A stretch of 35,759 bases of DNA from a virus (IMGVR_UViG_3300044535_000639:1-35759); one strand, 5' to 3'; shown: positions 2,939 through 29,902, counted from the stretch's first letter. Made by a program: numbers and translations. Notes: generated from the sequence alone by a model not told the origin.

Positions 2939-3403
2939 ATGACTGACAATTATGTAAAATTCATTTCTGAGCAAGTGCACAAAGAAAAAGTGCGCGGGTT
3001 CAAAGATATGGCAATCAACGAAGGTCTAGAACTTACATCTGAAGATTATATTAATATGCTTCATATGTATATTGAAGATCTTGAGTCACACTTTGAAGCA
3101 GAAGATCTCCAACAAATCCAAGAACTTTCACAAGACACAATGAAGTCTTATGTAAATAAATCCAAAGCCAATCTTAATAAAAATTGGAAAAAAGCTGGAT
3201 ACCATTATAACAAGGCAGACGATGCAGAAGATTCATCAAAAGAAGCTAAGCAATATGCCAGCGGCGACAAAGCTATGAAAAATGTAGCTAAAAGAGAAGT
3301 CGGTCAACACATGGCAGCCAAAAAACTTGGTACTAATTTTAAGCGTAAGACAACTTCTACATATGACAACGATCATCTTGAGCGTCGTGGATATCGCGAT
3401 TAA
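2939..3403 (+). CDS. Candidate capsid-targeted internal protein, 154 aa
   Basis: Start at ATG 2939 is preferred to ATG 2927 because GGAG at 2929-2932 lies six bases ahead. The N-terminus MTDNYVKFISEQ matches the T4 capsid-targeting pattern [YF]xxF[IL]xE, where the prohead protease gp21 cuts after [IL]xE. Residues 60-115 contain ELSQDTMKSYVNKSK and a later Lys/Ala helix. These resemble the repeated ELSKxTMGxYIxKA units of the 580-residue protein encoded at 11233. The C-terminus is basic and low-complexity. A late-promoter box precedes it and a strong terminator follows, so it is transcribed alone. An injected or scaffold-associated DNA-binding protein is inferred. Confidence 0.8.
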   Translation: MTDNYVKFISEQVHKEKVRGFKDMAINEGLELTSEDYINMLHMYIEDLESHFEAEDLQQIQELSQDTMKSYVNKSKANLNKNWKKAGYHYNKADDAEDSSKEAKQYASGDKAMKNVAKREVGQHMAAKKLGTNFKRKTTSTYDNDHLERRGYRD

Positions 3404-3426
3404 AAACAAAATATATAATTAACACG

Positions 3427-3464
3427 AACCGGCCCGGTAGCAATACTTGGGCCGGTTTTCTTTT
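3427..3464 (+). terminator. Strong intrinsic terminator
   Basis: A perfect nine-base stem, AACCGGCCC (3427-3435) with GGGCCGGTT (3449-3457), encloses a 13-base loop and runs straight into a T-rich tract (TTTTCTTTT). It is one of only two clear terminators I see in the window. It separates the gene at 2939 from the nuclease-like gene at 3496. Confidence 0.9.
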
Positions 3465-3468
3465 GTGT

Positions 3469-3476
3469 GATAAATA
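3469..3476 (+). promoter_or_regulatory. Candidate late promoter GATAAATA
   Basis: GATAAATA directly follows the terminator and lies about 20 bases before the ATG at 3496, with AAAGGAGA between. This is the layout of a T4-type late promoter. Together with the terminator it gives the next gene its own transcription unit. Confidence 0.6.
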
Positions 3477-3495
3477 ATCAAAAGGAGATATAATT

Positions 3496-4299
3496 ATGGC
3501 CAGTGATAAAGCGTTTCAAGACGAAATAAATGCTTTTAATAAGTTGAAAAACATGTTGGGGAGCGCTATTGTTTTTCAAGCACCGGCTGGCGCAGATGCA
3601 GGATTTCCTGATTTTGGTTTTACATTAATATTGCCTAATAAAAAAATCAATTTACATATAGAATATAAAAATGCGCACACCGCCCAAATGGGATCTATGC
3701 GTGATTGGGTATTTGATGGTAACAAATATTATACTAATGATAAGAACAGCGAACAGAAACAAGAACTTTTAACTATAATGAATAATACCCCAGATGCTAT
3801 TAAAAACGGAAAAAGATTGCTTTCTGATTTACAAAAATATTTTTCCAGTCAGGTAAAATCCATATATTCGGGCGCAATGACAGTTATAAAAGATAATGTG
3901 GCCAGAAAAGCAGCAGCTAAAAACTTTGCTAATAGTACAAAGAACTATCAGATAGCTAACATTGCTAATAGTACTTTGGGAGATAAAATCCTTACTCATT
4001 ATAAATCTAAATTTAAAAAATCTAGCACCAAGTTTAGTGCTAATGGTCATGTGTTGATTATGATGATTAAAGATGAAATGTGGTATGTCGATAAATCAAG
4101 CAATGTGACTGACGCTGATATAAAAATGATAGCGTCGTTTTTAGGGATAAAAAGTTTAAATAAACTTAGCGGCTTGGTAGCTGCTTTAGAAGTCCGAATC
4201 CAACCGCGCGGTCTAAACAGTGATAAACCGGCCTCTATCGATGTTATGGCAAGCTACCGGTTAAAGGGAAAACCTACTGGTGGGCAAAAAGTAATTTAA
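3496..4299 (+). CDS. Candidate PD-(D/E)XK nuclease, 267 aa
   Basis: Good ribosome site (AAAGGAGATA) before ATG 3496. Residues 38-39 are Pro-Asp in GFPDFGF, followed 16 residues later by E56-Y-K58 in a predicted beta strand (LHIEYKN). This spacing and the predicted strand order fit the PD-(D/E)XK core, with Glu10 in the preceding helix as a possible extra metal ligand. The downstream 200 residues are Lys/Asn/Ser-rich without another motif I know. The gene is visibly richer in A and T (AAA, AAT, TTA codons) than its neighbours and is isolated by a terminator, its own late-type promoter and a fresh promoter downstream. These hint at acquired cargo. The nuclease assignment is inference from the motif. 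Confidence 0.7.
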   Translation: MASDKAFQDEINAFNKLKNMLGSAIVFQAPAGADAGFPDFGFTLILPNKKINLHIEYKNAHTAQMGSMRDWVFDGNKYYTNDKNSEQKQELLTIMNNTPDAIKNGKRLLSDLQKYFSSQVKSIYSGAMTVIKDNVARKAAAKNFANSTKNYQIANIANSTLGDKILTHYKSKFKKSSTKFSANGHVLIMMIKDEMWYVDKSSNVTDADIKMIASFLGIKSLNKLSGLVAALEVRIQPRGLNSDKPASIDVMASYRLKGKPTGGQKVI

Positions 4300-4307
4300 A
4301 ATAACTG

Positions 4308-4336
4308 TGTACAAATTATCAAAAGTATTGTAGAGT
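4308..4336 (+). promoter_or_regulatory. Early-type promoter, TGTACA / 17 / TAGAGT
   Basis: TGTACA at 4308-4313, inside AAAATAACTGTGTACAAATTA, is followed after exactly 17 bases by TAGAGT at 4331-4336. It belongs to the recurring promoter family of this window. The expected transcription start (about 4343) falls on the ATG at 4342, so the message may be leaderless. Confidence 0.65.
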
Positions 4337-4341
4337 AAACT

Positions 4342-4947
4342 ATGATAAAGAAAAGATTCAGAGAGTTCATCGGTTCAGGCACACTTACGATATTCGATAT
4401 CGATGAGACACTGTTCCATACGTATGCCAAGGTTGCTGTCATGAAAGACGGTAAGGTTGTTCGAATGCTAGACAACCAAGAATTCAACACTTACAAACGT
4501 AAGAAGGGTGAAACCTACGACTACGGCGAGTTTGCGAATGCTGAGGTATTCCGCAAGTCATCCAAGCCGATCGGACGGATGGTTGCTAAAGCCAAAGCAA
4601 TCTTTGCTAATTCTAAGAAGAATCCTCACAGTCGTGTTATCATCTGTACTGCTCGTGCCGACTTTGACAACAAGGATATCTTCCTTCAGACGTTCAGAGA
4701 TCATGGTTTACCTATCGATAATATCCACGTTGAACGTGCTGGTAACTTGAAGATTGACTCCTCGGCTGAAGCCAAGAAGATCATCTTTCGGAAATATATA
4801 AATACCAAGAACTATGTAAAGCTTAGGTTGTTTGATGATGCTCCTAGCAATCTTCAAGCATTTCTTTCCTTAAAGAAGGAATATCCTGACATTACATTCG
4901 AGGCATATTTTGTAAATCCTGATGGATCGGTAAAAACAGTACGATGA
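4342..4947 (+). CDS. HAD-superfamily phosphatase, 201 aa
   Basis: All four HAD motifs are visible: motif I FDIDET (nucleophile Asp19, acid/base Asp21), motif II Thr103 in IICTARAD, motif III Lys145/146, and motif IV DD at 165-166 (LFDDAPSN). These form a Mg-dependent phosphoryl-transfer site through an aspartyl-phosphate. The substrate is unknown; the same fold serves as the 3'-phosphatase domain of T4 polynucleotide kinase. There is no ribosome site before ATG 4342, which lies at the predicted transcription start. The N-terminus KKRFREFIGSG loosely recalls the capsid-targeting peptides of neighbouring proteins but lacks the final Glu. It overlaps the ligase-like gene by ATGA. Confidence 0.85.
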   Translation: MIKKRFREFIGSGTLTIFDIDETLFHTYAKVAVMKDGKVVRMLDNQEFNTYKRKKGETYDYGEFANAEVFRKSSKPIGRMVAKAKAIFANSKKNPHSRVIICTARADFDNKDIFLQTFRDHGLPIDNIHVERAGNLKIDSSAEAKKIIFRKYINTKNYVKLRLFDDAPSNLQAFLSLKKEYPDITFEAYFVNPDGSVKTVR

Positions 4948-6113
4948 CCACATTTAAAGATTTCCTTTTCGAAGATGCAAGTGAAGAGAAGCTTAAGCAT
5001 CTTGAGCACGCCGAAGATCACGTACTTCACGGTGGCTCTGCTGGTTTCTCCCATGCGTATCATAACCTAAAAGATGTTCACGACAAACTTACAGGCAAAG
5101 AGAACGACACTAAGGTGACCATGAAGTATGATGGTTCACCTTCTGTAGTTTTTGGTCGCAACCCAGAGAACGGTAAGTTCTTTGTGGCAACTAAGTCTGC
5201 TTTTAATAAGAATCCTAAGATTAACTATACCCATGAAGATATTCAAAAGAATCACGGCCATGCGCCTGGTCTAGTTGAGAAGCTTAAGCATGCACTCGAT
5301 CACCTGCCTAAGGTAACTCCTAAGAAAGGTGTCTTCCAGGGTGATATCATGCATTCTAAAGGTGATGTACAAACACATGGTAACAAGATCAAGTTTACAC
5401 CTAATACCATAACATATGGTGCCGATAAGAACTCAGAGCATGGTATGGCTGCACTGAAGTCTCAGATCGGTGTTGCTGTACACACTGCCTATAAAGGTAA
5501 AGATCTTGAAAGCATGAAGGCAGAGTATGCGCCGGCTCTTAATAAGTTTGGTAAGCATCCTGACGTTCATGTTATCTCTACAGAGCATAAACTTGACGGT
5601 GCACACTACAAGCCTGAGCATCAACAACAGTTTGCTAAGCACATGAAAGCTGCAGCCGTTCTTCACAAGTCGATGCCTGAAGAAGGATACGATGCAGTTG
5701 TAAGTCACAATATTCCTTTGAAAACATATATCAACCACACCGTACGTCATGGCACGACTCCTACTCTTGCAGGATTCAAGAAGCATTTCGAAGCTTCGCA
5801 TCAGAAGAAAATCGATTCTGTAAAGACTGATAAGGCCAAGGCTTCGAAGACTGAAGCGGCAAATGCCGACATGGCACATGTCTCTACAAACAGAGCACAC
5901 TTCCAACGCGCTCTTGATATGCACAAGCACCTACAGAAGGCAAAGGACATCTTGACACATACGATGTCTAAGAGTTCTGAGTTCGAACATTCAATCAATG
6001 GTAAGAAGGCGAAACCAGAAGGTTTCGTTGCAGTTCGTTATAATCGTCCTACGAAGTTCGTAGACCGTAGTGAGTTTTCTGCCGCTAACTTTAATCGGGA
6101 CAAAGTACTATGA
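4944..6113 (+). CDS. Nucleotidyltransferase/ligase-like protein with KxDG motif, 389 aa
   Basis: Residues 61-64 are KYDG in a strand-turn context (VTMKYDGSPSVVFG), the motif I lysine of nucleotidyltransferases such as DNA/RNA ligases. A GVFQGDIM segment (129-136) recalls motif III/IIIa. Near the C-terminus PEGFV (358-362) and then Lys371 in KFVDRSEFS recall motifs IV and V. The interval between motif I and the EGFV is about 300 residues, longer than in T4 RNA ligase 2, so an insertion or a different arrangement must be assumed. The N-terminus MTTFKDFLFED fits the capsid-targeting pattern with a cut after LFE. I recall phage relatives carrying only a DUF label (DUF6267). Ligase activity is inferred. 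Confidence 0.75.
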   Translation: MTTFKDFLFEDASEEKLKHLEHAEDHVLHGGSAGFSHAYHNLKDVHDKLTGKENDTKVTMKYDGSPSVVFGRNPENGKFFVATKSAFNKNPKINYTHEDIQKNHGHAPGLVEKLKHALDHLPKVTPKKGVFQGDIMHSKGDVQTHGNKIKFTPNTITYGADKNSEHGMAALKSQIGVAVHTAYKGKDLESMKAEYAPALNKFGKHPDVHVISTEHKLDGAHYKPEHQQQFAKHMKAAAVLHKSMPEEGYDAVVSHNIPLKTYINHTVRHGTTPTLAGFKKHFEASHQKKIDSVKTDKAKASKTEAANADMAHVSTNRAHFQRALDMHKHLQKAKDILTHTMSKSSEFEHSINGKKAKPEGFVAVRYNRPTKFVDRSEFSAANFNRDKVL

Positions 6114-6721
6114 AGGCCATCCATATAACTCAAGGTAGGTTTAATCCTGTCCATGCTGGCCATGCTATGGTTGTAAAACACGTGATGGATTCTGCTAAGA
6201 AGGAAGGCGCAGATCATAAGATCCTGACTACTGGATCACACGATGCCAAGAAGAATCCATTGACTCCTGAGCAGAAGGTAAAGCATCTCTCCCGGGCGGT
6301 CAAGGGTGCACACGTGGAAGCTATGGGTAAAGATCATCCTACTCTTTTGCATCAGATGTCAAAGCTACATAAAGCTGGTTATACACATGTGACAATGCAT
6401 GTTGGCTCCGATCGTGTCAATGAATTCCATAAGCTTCTGCACCAATACAACGGTAAAGATCTCAAGCATGGTCACTATAACTTTAAGAGTATCAAGGTCA
6501 AGTCTGTAGGTGGTGAACGCAAAGAAGGCGGAGGCGGTATCGAGTCTGCGTCTGGCACCGCTATGCGTAAACATGCTGCAGCCGGTGACAAAGAATCTTT
6601 TCATAAGATGGCACCTGCCGGCATGAGCAAAGCACATAAGGACGAACTATACCACGATGTTCGTAAGGGCATGGGTACTAACGAATCGTTTATTATGAGA
6701 TTTAAGAACTGGATTAATTAA
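6110..6721 (+). CDS. Nucleotidylyltransferase (cytidylyltransferase-like, HxGH), 203 aa
   Basis: The start overlaps the previous stop (ATGA). GRFNPVHAGH (residues 9-18) is the N-terminal signature of the HxGH nucleotidylyltransferase superfamily (His15, His18), which transfers a nucleotide monophosphate, as NMN adenylyltransferase does. HVGSDR in the middle and a C-terminal ASGTAMRKH (the SxTxxR-like motif) complete the expected set. T4-like phages commonly carry such proteins. Whether it makes NAD, a CDP-activated product or a modified nucleotide is not visible. It is the third member of the phosphatase/ligase-like/nucleotidylyltransferase trio. Confidence 0.85.
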   Translation: MKAIHITQGRFNPVHAGHAMVVKHVMDSAKKEGADHKILTTGSHDAKKNPLTPEQKVKHLSRAVKGAHVEAMGKDHPTLLHQMSKLHKAGYTHVTMHVGSDRVNEFHKLLHQYNGKDLKHGHYNFKSIKVKSVGGERKEGGGGIESASGTAMRKHAAAGDKESFHKMAPAGMSKAHKDELYHDVRKGMGTNESFIMRFKNWIN

Positions 6722-8019
6722 TGGCTCAATTTAATACCAGTAATAATGCGTTCCAAGCTGGAAATAAGACACTATTTGAAGTTAATCAAATAGCTACATC
6801 CAATGGGGATCTAGTAACAGATAGCAATAGATTTCCTATTGCATTTGATCCTCTAGCATTAGATGCATTTGGTCGTTTTAGAATGTCAACACCGCTGACA
6901 CTATTTGATTCGTCTCACAGATATCGTGATAATGGATTATGGGTTACATCGAATACTGCTGGCACAACATATGCTCATAATGCCAATCAAGGCCTTGTTG
7001 ATTTAAATCTTCCTACTACAGCAGACGCAGAGATCGTACGAGAGACGACAAAGGTCTTTGCATATCAGCCTGGTAAGTCTCTTCTTGTTTTAAACACATT
7101 TGTTGCTACTGAACCAAAGGCCAATCTGCGCCAGCGCATTGGATATTTTGGAGCACAGAACGGAATCTACTTTGAAATCGATGGGATAACAGCGTATTTT
7201 GTCAAAAGATCATATGTAACTGGATCTGTAGTAGAAACACGAGTTGCTCAGGCCGATTGGAATAACAATACATTATCGAGTTTAGATCTCTCAAAAGCTC
7301 ATATTATGTGGATGGATATTGAATGGCTTGGTGTTGGCTCTGTTCGCTGTGGATTTGTCATAGACGGTAAATTTATTCATTGTCATTCGTTTCATCATGC
7401 CAACATAATTGCATCAACTTATATTACAACTGCAACTCTTCCGCTTCGCTATGAGATGAAAAATACTGGAACGACCGCAAGCGCATCTACACTTAAACAA
7501 ATATGTTCAACTGTAATTTCAGAAGGAGGCTATAATCTTTTTGGAATACAACAAGCAGTTGGTACACCAGTTGAAACACCAAGAACACTTGGCACGACCG
7601 GCACATTTTATCCTGTAATATCGCTCCGTCTTAAAAGCTCGCCAAATCGATTAGACGCAATTGCAATCATAACAGCACTTTCAATTATACCAATGACATC
7701 TGGTGCATACAACTGGCAACTAAGAGCAACAGGAGCCACAACTGGCGGTACGTGGGTAAGTGCTGGGGATGATAGCGCTGTTGAATATAATGTTACAGGC
7801 ACATCATTTGCCGGTGGCAGAGTTCTTGCAAGCGGTTTTTTCAAAGAAACAAACCAAAGTATGACCCAAATTGATATTCCAAAAGAAGCACTTTTTAAGT
7901 TTCAATTAGAAAGAAATAGTTTAACTACAACACCGCTTGAACTTACACTCGCGGTAGCTTCTAATAGTAGTAATGATACTTTACTTGCTTCAATGGATTG
8001 GGAAGAAGTTAGCCGTTAA
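6721..8019 (+). CDS. Virion structural protein, 432 aa
   Basis: ATG 6721 lies on the final base of the previous stop (TAATG). The protein has few charges, many Thr/Ser/Gly/Asn, and long runs of alternating hydrophobic residues, typical of beta-sandwich virion proteins. A block DAFGRFRMSTPLTLFDS followed by HRY is characteristic of structural proteins I remember from T4-like cyanophages and marine phages. No catalytic motif, signal peptide or membrane segment. The following intergenic region has a late-promoter box. It may be a tail-fibre, whisker or head-decoration component; I cannot say which. Confidence 0.75.
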   Translation: MAQFNTSNNAFQAGNKTLFEVNQIATSNGDLVTDSNRFPIAFDPLALDAFGRFRMSTPLTLFDSSHRYRDNGLWVTSNTAGTTYAHNANQGLVDLNLPTTADAEIVRETTKVFAYQPGKSLLVLNTFVATEPKANLRQRIGYFGAQNGIYFEIDGITAYFVKRSYVTGSVVETRVAQADWNNNTLSSLDLSKAHIMWMDIEWLGVGSVRCGFVIDGKFIHCHSFHHANIIASTYITTATLPLRYEMKNTGTTASASTLKQICSTVISEGGYNLFGIQQAVGTPVETPRTLGTTGTFYPVISLRLKSSPNRLDAIAIITALSIIPMTSGAYNWQLRATGATTGGTWVSAGDDSAVEYNVTGTSFAGGRVLASGFFKETNQSMTQIDIPKEALFKFQLERNSLTTTPLELTLAVASNSSNDTLLASMDWEEVSR

Positions 8020-8031
8020 GAGTTTTCTTGT

Positions 8032-8039
8032 TATAAATA
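8032..8039 (+). promoter_or_regulatory. Late promoter TATAAATA
   Basis: An exact match to the T4 late-promoter consensus TATAAATA in the 82-base gap between two structural genes, about 60 bases before the ATG at 8102. Exact match and position make it the best late promoter in the window. Confidence 0.7.
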
Positions 8040-8101
8040 CATGTACGGTTAGGCTACGTGCAATCCCGTTTGTGTAACAGATAAGCCCAAGGGAAACTCT
8101 G

Positions 8102-9916
8102 ATGGAAGACAAAGAAGTAAAAGACAAGACTGTACCGGTTAAAGCGCCTGAGAAAAACCTCAAGAAGCCGACTGGGAAATCTGCAACAGGTAAACCATTA
8201 GACGGTATCGACATCAATCCTCAGCTCAATGACGTGAGTACCAATGGTAACCTGCTAAAAATACGCAAAGAGGATTCCGTAGACCTAACTGCTCCCGTAA
8301 TTCAAGAGCGTAAAGCCTTGACATTACCACAGCGTCAGAAGCGTTCGCGCCAACTAAGAGCACGTGAACCACGCATGATTAGAGCACGTGAAGTTGCTAA
8401 AACAAAACTTGCAGGCCCAAGTAAAATAGAACAAAGAGCAATGGCCCACGCCCGTGCTTTTGTCAAGGCTAGAGTATCACCTCGTAAAGTTCCTTACTCA
8501 GAGCTGACAACATCTGAAAAAATTCAAGTAGATACTGCAGTAGCAAAGAAGACGAAGCTGATCAAGAGGATCGCTGCCCGTCTACTTCCACGTGTACGCA
8601 AGGCAGAGTTCGAAAGACTCAAGTCCTTCCGTAACGGTGAGAAACTACAAGATCTATCAACACAGAATCCGGCATCGCAAGGCATTATGCCTAAGGTGAC
8701 CGAAGAGATGTCACACCTGTTCAATACACTTGATGGTGCTGACACTAACTCGCTTATTTCTATCATCGAAGATACGATTAAGCAGTTTAATAGTGACAAT
8801 AACCCTATGGGTGAACAACTTAAGAAGATGCTTAATGCAGTTCTTCCTGAGGATGTTATAACCGAGTCACTTTTAAAGAAATCAGAAAAAACTGGCATTG
8901 CTTTCTCTACACTGAAAGAAGTGTTCGAACGCGGAGAATACTCTTGGGATGCATCCAACCGGATGACCCAGGAGCAATTCGCGTTTGCACGGGTGAATTC
9001 CTATATTGCCAAGGGTAAAGCATGGCATATGGATGCTGATGTTCGTGAAGAGAAGGTTGTTAATGCCAAACTAGACGAGTCGTTTGCTGCATTCCTTGAA
9101 GCGAGTGTCGGTACTACTGCACGCAAGAAGATCGAAGTAGTAGACCGTCCTCCTGCCAGCCAAGCAATCAAGACGCGCCAACAAGAGATCCAAAAAAAGA
9201 TTATTGATGAGTCTGGTAATACACCTTATGTAAGACCACATATCGAAAAGGGTTCTACTAGTCAATCTGGTTGGAAAGCATCTAATAAGCACGGTAATGT
9301 AAAGTACTTTGGCAAAGCATTCAAGGCATCAGCTATGAAGCATGCCGGTATATCTGAAGCTGCCGAAAAGCATCCGATTGTAAAAGAATATAACGCCCTT
9401 AAGAAACACGATATTAAGACTCTTCGTAATATGATTGCGCGGAGCGGTGGAGTTGTTGATACCTCTGGTTTTAAATCTAAAGATCACGCAGCATCACACA
9501 TCATTCGTTCAAAGCATGGTAATAAAAAAGTAGATGCTGCATTTGGATTTAAAGAAGATACTGCCGCGGATCGTGAGATCGGTACAGATGCACTAGTAAA
9601 GAAATACAAGAAGGATACACCAGGTCAGAAGTCAAACCTAGATGAGTCATTCAATATGGCATGGACATCCGGTATTGGCGTGACTCTATCGGCTGCCGAT
9701 TGTGGTATCCAGATCAAAGGTGGTTTCGCTTTACATCCTGATGTTATCGAGCAGATGCAATCAGATGCATTTGACGAAGAAGTTAGATCGGCCGATATTG
9801 AAGGTGTTATAGTTCGTACTGCTGACGGTAAAACAATTGTTCGCAAACAAAAAAGAAATCGTAAGATTATCGGTACCGGCAACCTAACTGATGGAAAACC
9901 AGATGATACGATTTAA
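8102..9916 (+). CDS. Large basic virion-associated protein, 604 aa
   Basis: Residues 1-60 are Lys/Pro-rich and disordered. Residues 75-180 are strongly basic and helical (LPQRQKRSRQLRAREP, ELTTSEKIQVDTAVAKK, RIAARLLPRVRKAEFERLKS), as in a family of internal virion proteins I remember from T4-like cyanophages. Two later segments, KLDESFAAFLEAS and SNLDESFNMAWTSG, repeat an LDESF element. A region around residues 430-480 alternates Lys/His helices (KHDIKTLRNMIARSGGV). This looks like a DNA-contacting head or prohead-core component. Ribosome site GGGAAA near 8090; the gene has its own late promoter. It overlaps the next gene. Confidence 0.75.
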   Translation: MEDKEVKDKTVPVKAPEKNLKKPTGKSATGKPLDGIDINPQLNDVSTNGNLLKIRKEDSVDLTAPVIQERKALTLPQRQKRSRQLRAREPRMIRAREVAKTKLAGPSKIEQRAMAHARAFVKARVSPRKVPYSELTTSEKIQVDTAVAKKTKLIKRIAARLLPRVRKAEFERLKSFRNGEKLQDLSTQNPASQGIMPKVTEEMSHLFNTLDGADTNSLISIIEDTIKQFNSDNNPMGEQLKKMLNAVLPEDVITESLLKKSEKTGIAFSTLKEVFERGEYSWDASNRMTQEQFAFARVNSYIAKGKAWHMDADVREEKVVNAKLDESFAAFLEASVGTTARKKIEVVDRPPASQAIKTRQQEIQKKIIDESGNTPYVRPHIEKGSTSQSGWKASNKHGNVKYFGKAFKASAMKHAGISEAAEKHPIVKEYNALKKHDIKTLRNMIARSGGVVDTSGFKSKDHAASHIIRSKHGNKKVDAAFGFKEDTAADREIGTDALVKKYKKDTPGQKSNLDESFNMAWTSGIGVTLSAADCGIQIKGGFALHPDVIEQMQSDAFDEEVRSADIEGVIVRTADGKTIVRKQKRNRKIIGTGNLTDGKPDDTI

Positions 9917-10196
9917 AGACTTTATCACTGAAAGAGGAGCGGACTCTAAAGGCCATTTCATTGCGACTGAAAAAGGCGCAGGGATGACATCAAAGGGTGT
10001 CAAGGCATTTCGTGCCAAGAACCCGGGGTCAAAGCTTCAGACTGCCGTTACAGGTAAAGTCAAGCCAGGATCCAAAGATGCAGGCAGACGCAAGTCATTC
10101 TGTGCTCGTATGTCAGGTATGCCAGGTCCTATGAAGGACGAGAAGGGCAGACCAACAAGAAAAGCAATGTCATTAAGAAGATGGAAGTGCAACTGA
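9903..10196 (+). CDS. Small basic protein with capsid-targeting-like N-terminus, 97 aa
   Basis: Start at ATG 9903 rather than 9891 because it yields MIRFKDFITERG, the [YF]xxF[IL]xE pattern of T4 capsid-targeting peptides, with a gp21-type cut expected after ITE. The remainder is short, basic and Gly/Lys-rich. It has a conserved-looking ending KDAGRRKSFCARMSGMPGPM and then RKAMSLRRWKC, which I recall as a small phage domain (DUF6321). It sits between two head-associated genes and overlaps both. A DNA-binding internal head protein is the natural inference. Confidence 0.75.
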   Translation: MIRFKDFITERGADSKGHFIATEKGAGMTSKGVKAFRAKNPGSKLQTAVTGKVKPGSKDAGRRKSFCARMSGMPGPMKDEKGRPTRKAMSLRRWKCN

Positions 10197-11232: not shown

Positions 11233-12975
11233 ATGTTTACAAGAAATATTAAAGATACATTCACAGCTAATCTTCTGAATGCCGTTTCTGGCGTTCTAGG
11301 TGAGGCAAAGAAGTGCAAAGATTGCGGTTGCGCAAAGTGCACATGCGATGATGCAGAAGATCAACCTGAAGAAACAAAAGAAGGTTATGTCAGCCATGCA
11401 CAGCGTAAAGCAGTGTGGGCAAACCGTGCCGACGATGGCAAGGGACATCCTGATAAGAAGAAAAAGATGAAGGAAGAAGCCGAGGTAGAAGAAGGTTATA
11501 TGCCTACTAATGACATGCCTTCTGAAAAAGATCGTAAGACCGCCGGTAAGCTTGGTGATCTACTAAAGCGTGAGCGTGATGCCAAAGAAAAGAAAGAGCC
11601 TAACGGCGTCAAGACCGAAGATACTGATATGCCATGGGCTGAGGATCCTAATAATCCTACTCGTAAAGCCGGCGTGCGTAAGGATGAGTACGGTAATAAG
11701 GTAAAGAACGTTGCTAAACATCTTGCTAAGAAGGCAATGAAGGCCAACGAAGAAGTAGAAGAGATTGAAGAAAAGCGCGGATTGTGGGATAACATCCATG
11801 CTAAACGCAAGCGTATCAAAGCTGGTTCAGGTGAGCGTATGCGTAAGCCTGGATCTGAAGGTGCACCATCTGCTGCAGATCTAAAGGCATCTCAGAAAGA
11901 AGAAGTGTCGCTTGATGGTGCATTCGAGCAGATTGATGAGATCTCAAAGGCAACAATGGGTCGCTATATCAATAAAGCTAAAGATTCGATTGATACTGCT
12001 TCTTATAGACAAGGCCACAAAGAAGCTCATGGCAGTTCATCAAAGCCTCTTGAAAAGAAACTCACAAAGCGCCATAAGGGTATTGAGACTGCTGTCAAGA
12101 AGTTGACTAAAGAAGACGCAGAGCAGATTGATGAACTCTCAAAGGATACAATGGGTCGGTACATCAACAAGGCTGCCACGAAAATGGGCAGTCAAGGTGT
12201 TACAGCCGGTCTCAAGATTGCTGCAGACGAAAAGTCAAGCAAGAACTTCAAGGACATGGGCAAGCGCGAAAAGGGTATTAAACTTGCTGTTAGCAAGCTG
12301 ACCAAGGAAGAGCAAGACTTTGTTGATTCGCTGAACGATACTGATATCGAACAGATTGATGAACTTTCAAAGGCAACAATGGGTTCTTATATTAAGAAGG
12401 CATCGGGTGCTGAACAGCCAAAGAATGTAATGTCACCAAAGAATATTCCATTGACAAAGATTGCTGCGTATCAAGGTGACAGTGAAACAGGACACTTTGG
12501 CAATAGATTTAATCAAGCAACTTACGACAAGGCAGATCGTCTTCGTAAGAACCGCTCACAAGGAATCACAAGAGCTGCTGATAAACTTGCCAAGGAAGAA
12601 ACAGAAATCACCGAAGCGCGCGGTCGTCCAAGAAAGGCCGGTGCCAGGGACTTCACGATCCATCCGAAGACTAAAGAAAAGTTGATGCATAATAATCCTG
12701 AGCATATGAAGAGGATTGAAAGACTTCAAAAAACTGGTATGCTACAGAAACCAAAGACTGAAGCAGGTCAGCACATCATGAATCAGCTTCAAAAGGCCAA
12801 AACGTCGATGACTGGCGGAACTATAATCAACTTCACACATGGTGATTCCAAGCATGTTTCTGGTACTCATGCTGCAAGACTTCTTGATAAGTATGCTGGA
12901 ATGAAACCAAATGAGAAGGAAACCTTCCAAAAGAAGATCGGCCACTCACACGAAAATCTTAAAAGCGAGTTATGA
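11233..12975 (+). CDS. Large Lys/Glu-rich repeat protein, 580 aa, probably virion or prohead-associated
   Basis: CGGAG precedes ATG 11233. Residues 31-48 carry a Cys cluster (KCKDCGCAKCTC), a likely zinc or metal site. A long low-complexity Lys/Glu region follows to about residue 230. Three related units then start at residues 232, 297 and 373, each beginning EQIDE[IL]SK-x-TMG-x-YI-x-KA and ending AxxKLxKE. The last 100 residues are basic, with a His-rich segment (HGDSKHVSGTHAARLLDKY). The composition recalls T4 prohead-core or internal proteins, and VLGEA near residue 22-26 offers a gp21-like [IL]xE site. Function otherwise unknown. Confidence 0.75.
   Translation: MFTRNIKDTFTANLLNAVSGVLGEAKKCKDCGCAKCTCDDAEDQPEETKEGYVSHAQRKAVWANRADDGKGHPDKKKKMKEEAEVEEGYMPTNDMPSEKDRKTAGKLGDLLKRERDAKEKKEPNGVKTEDTDMPWAEDPNNPTRKAGVRKDEYGNKVKNVAKHLAKKAMKANEEVEEIEEKRGLWDNIHAKRKRIKAGSGERMRKPGSEGAPSAADLKASQKEEVSLDGAFEQIDEISKATMGRYINKAKDSIDTASYRQGHKEAHGSSSKPLEKKLTKRHKGIETAVKKLTKEDAEQIDELSKDTMGRYINKAATKMGSQGVTAGLKIAADEKSSKNFKDMGKREKGIKLAVSKLTKEEQDFVDSLNDTDIEQIDELSKATMGSYIKKASGAEQPKNVMSPKNIPLTKIAAYQGDSETGHFGNRFNQATYDKADRLRKNRSQGITRAADKLAKEETEITEARGRPRKAGARDFTIHPKTKEKLMHNNPEHMKRIERLQKTGMLQKPKTEAGQHIMNQLQKAKTSMTGGTIINFTHGDSKHVSGTHAARLLDKYAGMKPNEKETFQKKIGHSHENLKSEL
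11926..12606 (+). repeat. Three tandem coding repeats (EQIDELSK units)
   Basis: Within the 580-residue protein, units begin at 11926, 12121 and 12349 (65, 76 and about 86 codons). Each opens with GAG/GAA CAG ATT GAT GA and encodes ELSKxTMGxYIxKA, then a variable Lys-rich spacer, then a KGI/A..KLTKE end. The DNA has drifted between copies while the peptide pattern stays, so the repeats are old and under selection. A single related unit occurs in the protein at 2939. Confidence 0.75.
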
Positions 12976-14288: not shown

Positions 14289-14677
14289 TGATTGATAAAA
14301 TTGATGAAACGAACTTTCTATTGTTCGCTGCGAAACATTATGATAACCCCCAGTGTTTTGACACCCTAGAATTTTACGAGGATCTATCTAGATTCAAGTA
14401 TATTAAAAGATTACTTAACCGTTACGAAGAGTCTGGCGATCTTAAAGAACGTCTGATTATTAACCACCTGATAATTTTATATAATGTATTTGGTACTGCT
14501 ACGACAAAGATGTTGTTCTTTAAACTAGACGGCCAACTTCATCTATTGAAGCCGTTTATTGTTTTGATGGGCCAAATGCCTGATGTAATTCGTGGTATAG
14601 GAATAGAAAATAAAACTATAATCAGTTCTGATATCCCTATGGATGAGAAGATAGTACAGATACTAAGGAAGATTTAA
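14288..14677 (+). CDS. Conserved T4-type protein (ETNFLLFAAKHYDNP), 129 aa
   Basis: Begins on the TAATG junction with the previous gene. The N-terminus IDETNFLLFAAKHYDNPQC is a well-conserved block I remember from many T4-like phages in proteins of about 130 residues with no known function (annotated only with a DUF number). The rest is helical and mixed-charge. Gene order next to the MSQLKGI-type protein is also commonly kept. Function unknown. Confidence 0.8.
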   Translation: MIDKIDETNFLLFAAKHYDNPQCFDTLEFYEDLSRFKYIKRLLNRYEESGDLKERLIINHLIILYNVFGTATTKMLFFKLDGQLHLLKPFIVLMGQMPDVIRGIGIENKTIISSDIPMDEKIVQILRKI

Positions 14678-15369
14678 TGGCTAAAGATCCAAGAGAATAC
14701 GGATACGAAGGTGAGATGGTGATGTCTCAGCTAAAAGGTATCATGAATCATGCTAAGCAACTTCATGATATGCTTGAGCCAAGTACAGATCTTCCAGAGT
14801 GGGTTCAATCAAAGATCACTCTTGCTTATGATTACATGCAAACGGCTGCCGACTATATGGCAACCGAGATGAGCGAAGAAGTAAACGTAGACAAGTATGC
14901 TGATTCGTTAATCAAGCGCGATAAACAAAATCTTAGTAAAAGACATGTAGTTCATGCAGCTCGCGTTGCAGGCGTAGATCATAAGAAACTTTTAACTGCT
15001 GTTCAGATGAAAGTAGGCCGCATTAAAGAAGAAGTTACTCACTCTGTACATGTCAAGACATATGACTCACAAGGTCAAAAGCAGATGAACTCACCAGAGT
15101 TCAAGAAGCATGTTACTGCACACGGTGGTGAACTAGATTATCCTTCTGACAAGGGTGCAGCATTCAAGTTTAAGTCAGCATCACATGCTGCAGCATTTCA
15201 TCGTGGTGTCCAATCAAAGTTTAAAGAACTTGATTCTGAACATGATATGCATGAAGACATGGCAATGGGAACTGGCCCTGTAAACGTTGCTGCTAATGTA
15301 GCCAATCCTGATAATAAAAAACTGTTTACTAAACCAATGAAGAGATTTAAAAGCTTTAAGGCTAAATAA
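14677..15369 (+). CDS. Two-part virion-associated protein, 230 aa
   Basis: TAATG junction with the previous gene. Residues 13-70 carry EMVMSQLKGIMNHAKQLHDM, then LPEWVQSKITLAYDYMQTAADYM, a helical block common in T4-like phage proteins of unknown function. Residues 115-190 hold a separate basic/aromatic part (SVHVKTYDSQ, SPEFKKHVTAHGG, FKSASHAAAFHRGV). The C-terminus is Lys/Phe-rich. Two domains joined by a short linker are the simplest reading. It lies at the junction of the virion block and the lysis block. Confidence 0.75.
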   Translation: MAKDPREYGYEGEMVMSQLKGIMNHAKQLHDMLEPSTDLPEWVQSKITLAYDYMQTAADYMATEMSEEVNVDKYADSLIKRDKQNLSKRHVVHAARVAGVDHKKLLTAVQMKVGRIKEEVTHSVHVKTYDSQGQKQMNSPEFKKHVTAHGGELDYPSDKGAAFKFKSASHAAAFHRGVQSKFKELDSEHDMHEDMAMGTGPVNVAANVANPDNKKLFTKPMKRFKSFKAK

Positions 15370-15370
15370 T

Positions 15371-15883
15371 ATGTTCGGTATGATTCCTTTACCATATAAG
15401 TTACTTGCTGGTGCAGCACTGCTAGCCGGTGTTTTCTTTTATGGTTACATGAAGGGATCAGCGCATGCTGAGGCAGAACTTGCTAGATTCTCTGCTGAGA
15501 AGAGTGCACAAGTTGTCGAACTTGAAAAGAAAAACACAGAGATAAGTAATAATGTTGTAACCGAGTATGTTGACAGAACAAACACGATTAGAGAGAAAGA
15601 ATATGTATACCTTGACGCCGCTAAAAACTCTGTTCCTAGTCAGCACGTTATGTCTAACGGCTGGGTGTACACGCACGACCTTAGTGCCACATCCGGTGAT
15701 GCCGACTCCACCAGAGCTTCTGATGCGAGCGCCTCAGGAATTACAGACACTACAGCCCTCGTCGGAATCATCACAAACTACTCAAGATGCCAACAAAACG
15801 CCGAGCAACTTAGACAACTCCAGCAATGGATAAGCCAGAATAAGGCTGCTGTTGATGCCATGGCAGAAGAGAAAAAGAAATGA
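15371..15883 (+). CDS. Rz-like inner-membrane spanin, 170 aa
   Basis: One N-terminal membrane segment at about residues 8-27 (LLAGAALLAGVFFYGYM) is followed by a charged periplasmic coiled-coil (FSAEKSAQVVELEKKNTEIS) and another helical stretch near the C-terminus (CQQNAEQLRQLQQWIS). This is the architecture of Rz inner-membrane spanins, which fuse inner and outer membranes at lysis. The decisive point is a lipoprotein frame nested inside it (15603-15833), as in lambda Rz/Rz1. No endolysin is recognised beside it. Confidence 0.85.
   Translation: MFGMIPLPYKLLAGAALLAGVFFYGYMKGSAHAEAELARFSAEKSAQVVELEKKNTEISNNVVTEYVDRTNTIREKEYVYLDAAKNSVPSQHVMSNGWVYTHDLSATSGDADSTRASDASASGITDTTALVGIITNYSRCQQNAEQLRQLQQWISQNKAAVDAMAEEKKK
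15603..15833 (+). CDS. Rz1-like outer-membrane lipoprotein, embedded in Rz, 76 aa
   Basis: A second frame inside the Rz gene begins at ATG 15603 with GAGAGAAAGA upstream; an upstream in-frame ATG at 15567 gives a poorer signal peptide. The peptide MYTLTPLKTLFLVSTLCLTA ends at a lipobox, LTAGC, with Cys22 as the lipidated residue. A proline-rich stretch (VPHPVMPTPPELLMRAP) and a Gln/Ser-rich tail follow, both typical of Rz1. It would pair with Rz across the periplasm. The nested arrangement and lipobox make this a confident call. Confidence 0.88.
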   Translation: MYTLTPLKTLFLVSTLCLTAGCTRTTLVPHPVMPTPPELLMRAPQELQTLQPSSESSQTTQDANKTPSNLDNSSNG

Positions 15884-18820: not shown

Positions 18821-19079
18821 ACTAGTAGACAACGAATTCGGAATCGAGTACGAGCAGATCTCGATCAAGAAGCTTCGGATCTTCCGAGTTGGCAAGCAGT
18901 GGCTTGTCGAGTATCAACGAGCTCCTCGTCTTTGGGCTCCATGGGATTATTTCTGGTGGTATAATGACGGACAGTACGTAGAGTATTACGATGCTCTTGG
19001 CCGAGTGAATGAACTCAAGGCCAATGGATATGTGAATATCCCAAGATTTATGAATGCAAAAACTTTTGAGGTGGAATAA
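18813..19079 (+). CDS. Hypothetical Trp/Tyr-rich protein, 88 aa
   Basis: It overlaps the previous gene by eight bases and ends on TAATG with the next. It is aromatic-rich: APWDYFWWYNDGQYVEYYD. I recall similar small T4-like phage proteins without a known role. No catalytic or membrane motif. Its place between primase and thyX suggests a replication-era early or middle gene. Confidence 0.7.
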   Translation: MTELVDNEFGIEYEQISIKKLRIFRVGKQWLVEYQRAPRLWAPWDYFWWYNDGQYVEYYDALGRVNELKANGYVNIPRFMNAKTFEVE

Positions 19080-19273
19080 TGAAAGACGAAATTAAAATGG
19101 TGCTTCGCAAGCATTTTCAAGCACACATTGAGAAGCATGCAATGAACGTTCGTGTTATGATGAATAACCCAATGGCTATTCATGAACATACCGACTTTAT
19201 GGGTGCAATTGAACTTGAACTTGGTCATATCGCCGAGTATAAGGACAAGCTCGAAGCGATGGAACATATTTAA
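19079..19273 (+). CDS. Hypothetical small protein, 64 aa
   Basis: TAATG junctions on both sides. Mostly helical with several His and Met residues (HFQAHIEKHAMNVRVMMNN), then an acidic helix (MGAIELELGHIAEYKDKL). No motif known to me. Histidine content could allow metal binding, but this is speculation. Translation coupled to thyX. Confidence 0.65.
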   Translation: MKDEIKMVLRKHFQAHIEKHAMNVRVMMNNPMAIHEHTDFMGAIELELGHIAEYKDKLEAMEHI

Positions 19274-29741: not shown

Positions 29742-29902
29742 GCAAGTCGACTAAACGTAATAATAAGTATATTAGTGATGAGGTCGAGAGCCGACCAATG
29801 TATGAAGAACATCGCACACGTCTTCAACAAAAGAAACTGGTTTCAGCTCTTAGATCTAAGAATGCTGAGGCATTGCTTCAACTGACTGAAGAAGAGTACT
29901 AA
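29738..29902 (+). CDS. Hypothetical small protein, 54 aa
   Basis: ATGA junction at 29738 and TAATG at 29902. Basic start (MSKSTKRNNKYISDEVESR) then a charged helix (HRTRLQQKKLVSALRSK) and an acidic end (LTEEEY). Short T4-like phage proteins of this style are common. No assignment. Supported by coupling on both sides. Confidence 0.65.
   Translation: MSKSTKRNNKYISDEVESRPMYEEHRTRLQQKKLVSALRSKNAEALLQLTEEEY

Follow-up and report, generated by a model that had tools for sequence, protein, structure and literature searches.

Predicted capsid-targeting tags on unrelated proteins of a T4-like phage fragment and its aquatic relatives

The question raised by this locus is whether several proteins encoded close together in a T4-like phage are marked at their N-termini for packaging into the phage head. 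The DNA analyzed here (the window) is the entire 35.8-kb virus record IMGVR_UViG_3300044535_000639 (35,759 nucleotides), a fragment that holds T4-like replication and structural genes, e.g., a gp61-type primase and a phrog_1645 virion protein. DNA-level search of the window against phage records gave nothing useful. The original prediction pointed to three N-termini resembling the capsid-targeting sequence (CTS) of T4 internal proteins, and all three are present in open frames at the positions claimed: MTDNYVKFISE|Q at 2939, MTTFKDFLFE|D at 4944 and MIRFKDFITE|R at 9903. Alternative in-frame ATGs occur 12 nt upstream of two of these starts (2927 for 2939 and 9891 for 9903), and a ribosome-binding-like GGAG/GGA precedes 2939 and 9903 themselves.

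Tags in the T4 register and the proteins that carry them

Amber-suppressor analysis of T4 IPIII assigned targeting mainly to residues 4 and 7 and processing to residues 8 and 10 (reviewed in PMC9026906). The same four positions are matched by 4944, which reads M-T-T-F4-K-D-F7-L8-F-E10, and by 9903, which reads M-I-R-F4-K-D-F7-I8-T-E10, and 2939 fits this register shifted by one residue. The aromatic residues of a T4-type CTS at positions 4 and 7 are therefore found in 4944 and 9903 and one residue later in 2939; the [IL]xE at positions 8–10 is also in place, but not in two weaker candidates at 4342 and 15880. Scanning T4 with the same motif returned IPII and IPIII, both MKTYQEFIAE|A (T4 65416-66415), and IPI, found separately, reads MKTFKEFTSTTTPVSTITE|A; the T4 peptide quoted in the original prediction is correct for IPII and IPIII but slightly different from that of IPI. 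A 54-aa ORF on the T4 minus strand (18966-19130) starts with MKTFKEFIKE, a full CTS match beyond the three named internal proteins.

The phage tags resemble those of the T4 internal proteins in being N-terminal and ~10 residues long, with aromatic residues at 4 and 7, I or L at 8 and E at 10, followed by a body that would then be freed, and relatives encode T4-type gp21, gp22 and gp23. They differ in that position 8 more frequently has L than I and that the predicted cut is often followed by E, R or D instead of A. In addition, the tagged bodies are unrelated to IPI–III and some are enzymes, as judged from the Pfam families DUF6267 and DUF6321 and not from direct comparison of the bodies. T4 Alt, an ADP-ribosyltransferase that is packaged and injected, is likewise a head-carried enzyme with an N-terminal [IL]xE propeptide (MELITE), although it lacks the FxxF pattern and has other enzyme chemistry.

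The protein at 4944..6113 (plus strand) belongs to DUF6267 (Pfam PF19782, E=6e-101), and its predicted CTS, MTTFKDFLFE (4944..4973, plus strand), lies in the IPIII register with a predicted gp21 cut after E10. Homologs, down to ~34% identity, were retrieved with an alignment of the KxDG and FFVxTK regions only, so that the N-terminus played no part in the search. In a 40-sequence alignment, all 36 homologs in which positions 4 and 7 are present have F at the former and F or Y at the latter; position 8 has L/I in 37 of 38 and position 10 has E in 34 of 38, with positions 5, 6 and 9 freely variable. The motif occurs in 92 of 109 distinct homologs, among which the F and E codons differ synonymously. 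Several of the remaining 17 have shifted or altered versions, and some cyanophage DUF6267 proteins are untagged. One lineage (L269, L274, L276, L281, L282 and L285) retains FKGF, and T[KQ] replaces the glutamate of the cut site (MFSFKGFITKDK); these proteins are perhaps targeted but uncut.

In the AlphaFold model of the DUF6267 protein (mean pLDDT 90.6), residues 1–12 are the sole stretch below 50, and such predicted disorder outside the folded body is as expected of a detachable tag. The earlier suggestion that this protein is ligase-like finds support in its fold and, less clearly, in its motifs. In VIA-align, ranks 1–25 were all RNA ligases (183–185 residues, rmsd 3.3–3.6), with Z scores of 10.0 for the Naegleria gruberi ligase (the best), 8.9 for T. 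brucei REL1 (TbREL1) and 8.5–8.7 for T4 Rnl2. The likeness lies in the structurally aligned nucleotidyltransferase core and extends in part to the motifs, with motif I KxDG, a motif III-like QGD, motif IV EG and a motif V-like KxV, and K61xDG, QGD134, E359G and K371 are invariant in 40 DUF6267 sequences. However, identity is only 10–14%, a large helical insertion is present (residues 224–344), motif III carries D where E is usual, and motif V contains a single K, the second being absent. Foldseek alone found no significant match for the model, and a PDB sequence-profile search yielded weak helical matches only. Since the Foldseek result was not significant, the model-based assignment as an RNA-ligase-like nucleotidyltransferase is good but not certain, and ligase activity is inferred.

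The protein at 9903..10196 (plus strand) is small and very basic and belongs to DUF6321 (Pfam PF19846, E=4e-20); its structural model is poor (pLDDT 63). The predicted CTS, MIRFKDFITE (9903..9932, plus strand), is in the T4 register with a predicted cut after E10. It is conserved in 30 of 36 distinct DUF6321 homologs, and several of the six without the motif are fused or internal domains. In L079 (12304-12717), a longer frame holds the end of an NMNAT-like domain and a DUF6321 domain with a CTS-like MKDFKTFLAED between them; translation may start there internally, or cutting there would separate the two domains.

For the protein at 2939..3403 (plus strand), which is of unknown function and has no Pfam assignment, the tag MTDNYVKFISE (2939..2971, plus strand) is one residue longer than that of T4. 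KYxKFISE or NYVKFISE is kept in its homologs, and as these are few the protein only probably carries a CTS. The notion of at least two basic proteins held for 9903 (net charge +18) and failed for 2939 (net charge −1). The 2939 protein has one IQELSQDTMKSYVNKS repeat in common with the protein at 11233-12975; the repeat, [IV]DE[LI]SxxTMxxYIxKA, occurs three times in the latter. The N-terminus of the 11233 protein (MFTRNIKDTFTANLLNAVSGVLGE|A; 11233..11304, plus strand) is longer and conserved, ends in [IV]L[GD]E|A in homologs and has no FxxF, and it may represent a second class of head-protein propeptide. A related repeat is found in a protein of the relative G003 (L103, 124173-125495) that starts with MAKTLKDFLNE|R and is encoded immediately before gp21 within the head module, the position that gene 68 takes in T4. 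It is possible that these repeat proteins have a role in the prohead core.

Modularity of the tag and weaker candidates

A DNA pattern consisting of a ribosome-binding site followed by MKxFxxFxxEA, applied blindly to IMG/VR, produced at least 120 matches. Among the matches listed were at least 34 NMNAT-like proteins and at least 10 adenylate kinase-like proteins (Pfam ADK, E=4e-41), together with HAD phosphatases homologous to that at 4342 in the window, DUF6267 and DUF6321 proteins, relatives of the window protein at 14677 and many orphans. We tested eight source contigs of ≥100 kb: an S77 gp21 is encoded by seven of them and a T4-type gp23 by the remaining one. As far as sequence comparison can tell, one tag precedes unrelated bodies across phages, i.e., it is modular. 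The presence of the tag, its register, its conservation and its modularity are thereby established for the T4-type CTS reading.

The NMNAT/cytidylyltransferase-like protein of the window (6110..6721, plus strand; Pfam CTP_transf_like, phrog_3041/395) is itself untagged and is tagged in many relatives. Six of 69 loci encode DUF6267 and the NMNAT-like domain as a fusion, and in 62 of the 69 the tag is present on at least one of the two partners or on the fusion. Of 63 separate pairs, 44 have exactly one tagged partner, 12 have two and 7 have none. A rule of one tag per pair was rejected because of the last two groups. A domain of the window protein at 14677-15369 (...LPEWVQSKITLAYDYM...) recurs in small, fully tagged proteins from other phages (L307 and L336).

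Two N-termini had been put forward as weaker echoes of the motif, and they fared differently. The HAD phosphatase at 4342..4947 (plus strand) resembles the phosphatase part of polynucleotide kinase (phrog_415, polynucleotide kinase, E=2e-8; FDIDETLF motif), and its N-terminus, MIKKRFREFIGS (4342..4377, plus strand), contains the targeting half of the tag (FxxF) without a cut site. It is homologous to true tags, since HAD homologs in L214, L238, L309, L320 and L399 have full ones (for example MKTFKSFLTE|AVGKKSLHIFDIDDT). In the lineage of the window protein, RF[KR]xF[IV] is kept and a G always stands where the cut motif should run, so a cleavable tag was rejected. A T4 CTS with D10 still targets without being processed (PMC9026906); by this analogy it is possible that the HAD protein is packaged uncut through an uncleaved targeting peptide, its packaging being inferred. 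The peptide at 15880 was rejected as a tag, as it is not conserved and its relatives read MKKFKDxPEED. Nearby, 15371-15883 is an Rz-like spanin gene, and an overlapping lipoprotein-like frame (15567-15833) makes this a nested Rz/Rz1-type pair.

Processing sites and virion proteomics in relatives

The original prediction had proposed a comparison of the tags with the phage's own gp21 protease and major head protein cut site, and this could be met only through relatives, where gp21 and matching gp23 cut sites were found. An S77 protease was searched for in the window and is absent from this 35.8-kb fragment; as a result, processing in the phage from which the window derives is unproven. S77 gp21 was found in the relatives G003 and G004 and in nine isolates (HTVC008M, Melnitz-2, Syn9, S-PRM1, S-CREM2, S-SZBM1, S-SCSM1, S-SM1 and T4). 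At the site homologous to T4 FLTE65|A, the gp23 propeptides of relatives end in FLSE|A, FLAE|A, LLTE|A or ILTE|A, and further ends are ILTE|T, FLGE|I, LFE|A and MLGE|G. In the gp21 N-termini of relatives, [IL]xE occurs at residue 6 and again close to residue 16, and gp22 is ~1.6- to 3-fold richer in [IL]xE sites than expected from composition. From these sites the protease is predicted to have the same specificity as in T4, and the last letters of the tag agree with them. Cutting by gp21 in this clade is nevertheless inferred, with no peptide evidence.

Published virion data allowed a test in the cyanophage S-CREM2, for which we used GenBank starts (219 proteins, 52 detected in virions; PMC10665884, Table 3). 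The strict motif picked 3 of the 219 proteins: gp6 (MKDFDSFLEE), a SAM hydrolase; gp14 (VKRFDAFLTE), an APH/ChoK-like kinase; and gp154 (MKNFSSFLTE), an NMNAT-like cytidylyltransferase. All three were detected in virions (Fisher p 0.013, or 0.0022 once recognized structural and lysis proteins were removed), and with a relaxed motif 5 of 7 proteins were detected. In the Cas9-like virion protein gp12 (OR473000, 7704-10313), RFASFMAE|A occurs ~17 residues past the annotated start, and the true start may lie further in than annotated. With gp6, gp14, gp154 and gp12 tagged, all four non-lytic virion-associated enzymes listed by the S-CREM2 authors carry the tag. The authors mentioned no tag and cautioned that the virion preparation might be contaminated (PMC10665884).

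NMNAT-like virion proteins of S-SZBM1 (MRFRQFIIE|A), S-SCSM1 (MKSFLQFLKE|A) and S-SM1 (MKKFSAFLNE|A) are tagged as well. These proteins (S-SZBM1_140, S-SCSM1 ORF91 and S-SM1 T4-GC190) and S-CREM2 gp154 belong to the enzyme family of the window protein at 6110, and in S-SZBM1 and S-SM1 they adjoin DUF6267; the window lineage differs in having the tag on DUF6267 and not on the NMNAT-like protein. The untagged DUF6267 homologs S-CREM2 gp87 and S-SZBM1_141 are missing from the virion tables, and for this reason piggy-back packaging of untagged DUF6267 is not supported. The S-CREM2 protein gp137, which has a DUF6321 domain, is in the virion. Counter-evidence came from S-SZBM1, in which only one of three tagged proteins was detected, _191 and _192 being missing from its shorter virion list. 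According to these published data, tagged homologs are present in the virions of relatives; presence in the virions of the phage studied here is inferred. Together with the T4 register, conservation at four positions and the unrelated tagged bodies, mass spectrometry of tagged homologs in virions supports the capsid-targeting reading originally proposed.

Proposed mechanism, alternatives and significance

The best explanation of these data, and one we hold with considerable confidence, is CTS-guided packaging followed by gp21 cutting and probable injection. In this mechanism, F4 and F7 would bind the growing prohead core, so that the tagged protein would be enclosed as gp23 closes around it. 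The S77 protease gp21 would then cut after [IL]xE and leave the mature protein free amid the packaged DNA. As in the case of the T4 internal proteins and Alt, the mature cargo would exit with the DNA at infection; injection by this phage is inferred from that analogy alone. DUF6267 and its neighbours, the polynucleotide kinase-type HAD phosphatase and the NMNAT-like enzyme, might thus form a kit available before phage gene expression. Among its possible functions a role in RNA repair or in nucleotide/NAD metabolism is the most likely, though this is speculative and inferred. tRNA-cleaving and NAD-depleting defences are plausible targets, likewise by inference; for tRNA cleavage, T4 Pnk and Rnl1 provide the background. 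Reconstitution of NAD+ by phages has been described (PMC12774641).

It could be argued that the matches are fortuitous, as the core of the motif has four letters and, of the five mechanical matches in the window, the two at 29902 (an internal Met) and 31880 (antisense, on the minus strand) look like noise. To estimate chance, we counted [FYW]..[FYW][ILVM].E within a 14-residue stretch, with the interior of the window's own proteins as background. The background rate of 0.00203 per position corresponds to 0.13 expected among 65 ORF N-termini and P(≥3) ~3e-4, which makes three such N-termini unlikely by chance. A comparison of motif rates with four phages lacking S77 was borderline (p=0.05; T5 had one match), the sample being too small. 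Given the P value in the window alone and conservation across more than 100 homologs, coincidence is scarcely conceivable as a general explanation: by conservation it is excluded for the tags of 4944 and 9903, and low odds of it remain for 2939. An amphipathic helix of the form FxxFLxE might also serve another purpose, e.g., in a cytoplasmic complex, with the virion detections due to contamination. There are no cleavage data, untagged proteins are also in virion lists and abundant enzymes could contaminate, as the caution of the S-CREM2 authors implies (PMC10665884). Yet the strictly tagged S-CREM2 proteins were all detected, whereas DNA polymerase, RNR and primase are not among the 52; moreover, conservation of [IL]xE with a free middle residue is the pattern of a protease site, and the gp23 propeptide ends in the same letters as the tag. 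We consider this explanation very improbable.

A different possibility accepts that the tag targets the prohead and limits the cargo to a core or assembly role, as for T4 IPIII, with nothing useful injected. IPIII does affect head assembly, and the internal proteins co-purify with the core protein gp22 (PMC9026906). However, most tagged bodies are enzymes whose catalytic motifs are invariant, and the cargo varies from phage to phage, which would be odd for a structural part. A purely structural role thus seems unlikely to us, if less so than the preceding alternatives, and packaging with probable injection remains the preferred reading.

A T4 review regarded the CTS as possibly a general packaging route in T4-like phages (PMC9026906). 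In a literature search that left subscription journals largely uncovered, we found only T4-centred and SPN3US papers and none that links a CTS to cyanophage-type phages; with the same coverage, no paper mentioning DUF6267 was found. As the T4 CTS is known, the novelty would lie in new enzymatic cargo for the same mechanism in a distant clade. More tentatively, and short of what we would call probable, a ten-residue N-terminal code may sort a changing set of enzymes into the heads of T4-like phages of ocean and lake as an injected counter-defence and repair kit whose cargo can be read from sequence. That cargo might comprise DUF6267, the polynucleotide kinase-type phosphatase, NMNAT-like proteins, adenylate kinase, SAM hydrolase, a kinase and the Cas9-like protein, and the defences countered might be tRNA cleavage, NAD loss and restriction. 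Enzymes in cyanophage particles previously had no explanation for their route of entry, and contamination was not excluded by the authors who found them; a ten-residue tag that follows T4 rules offers both a mechanism and a sequence test for head cargo. If this is true, genomes would allow prediction of the proteins that abundant aquatic myoviruses bring into the host at the very start of infection, and this early cargo would include likely counter-defence and RNA-repair enzymes.
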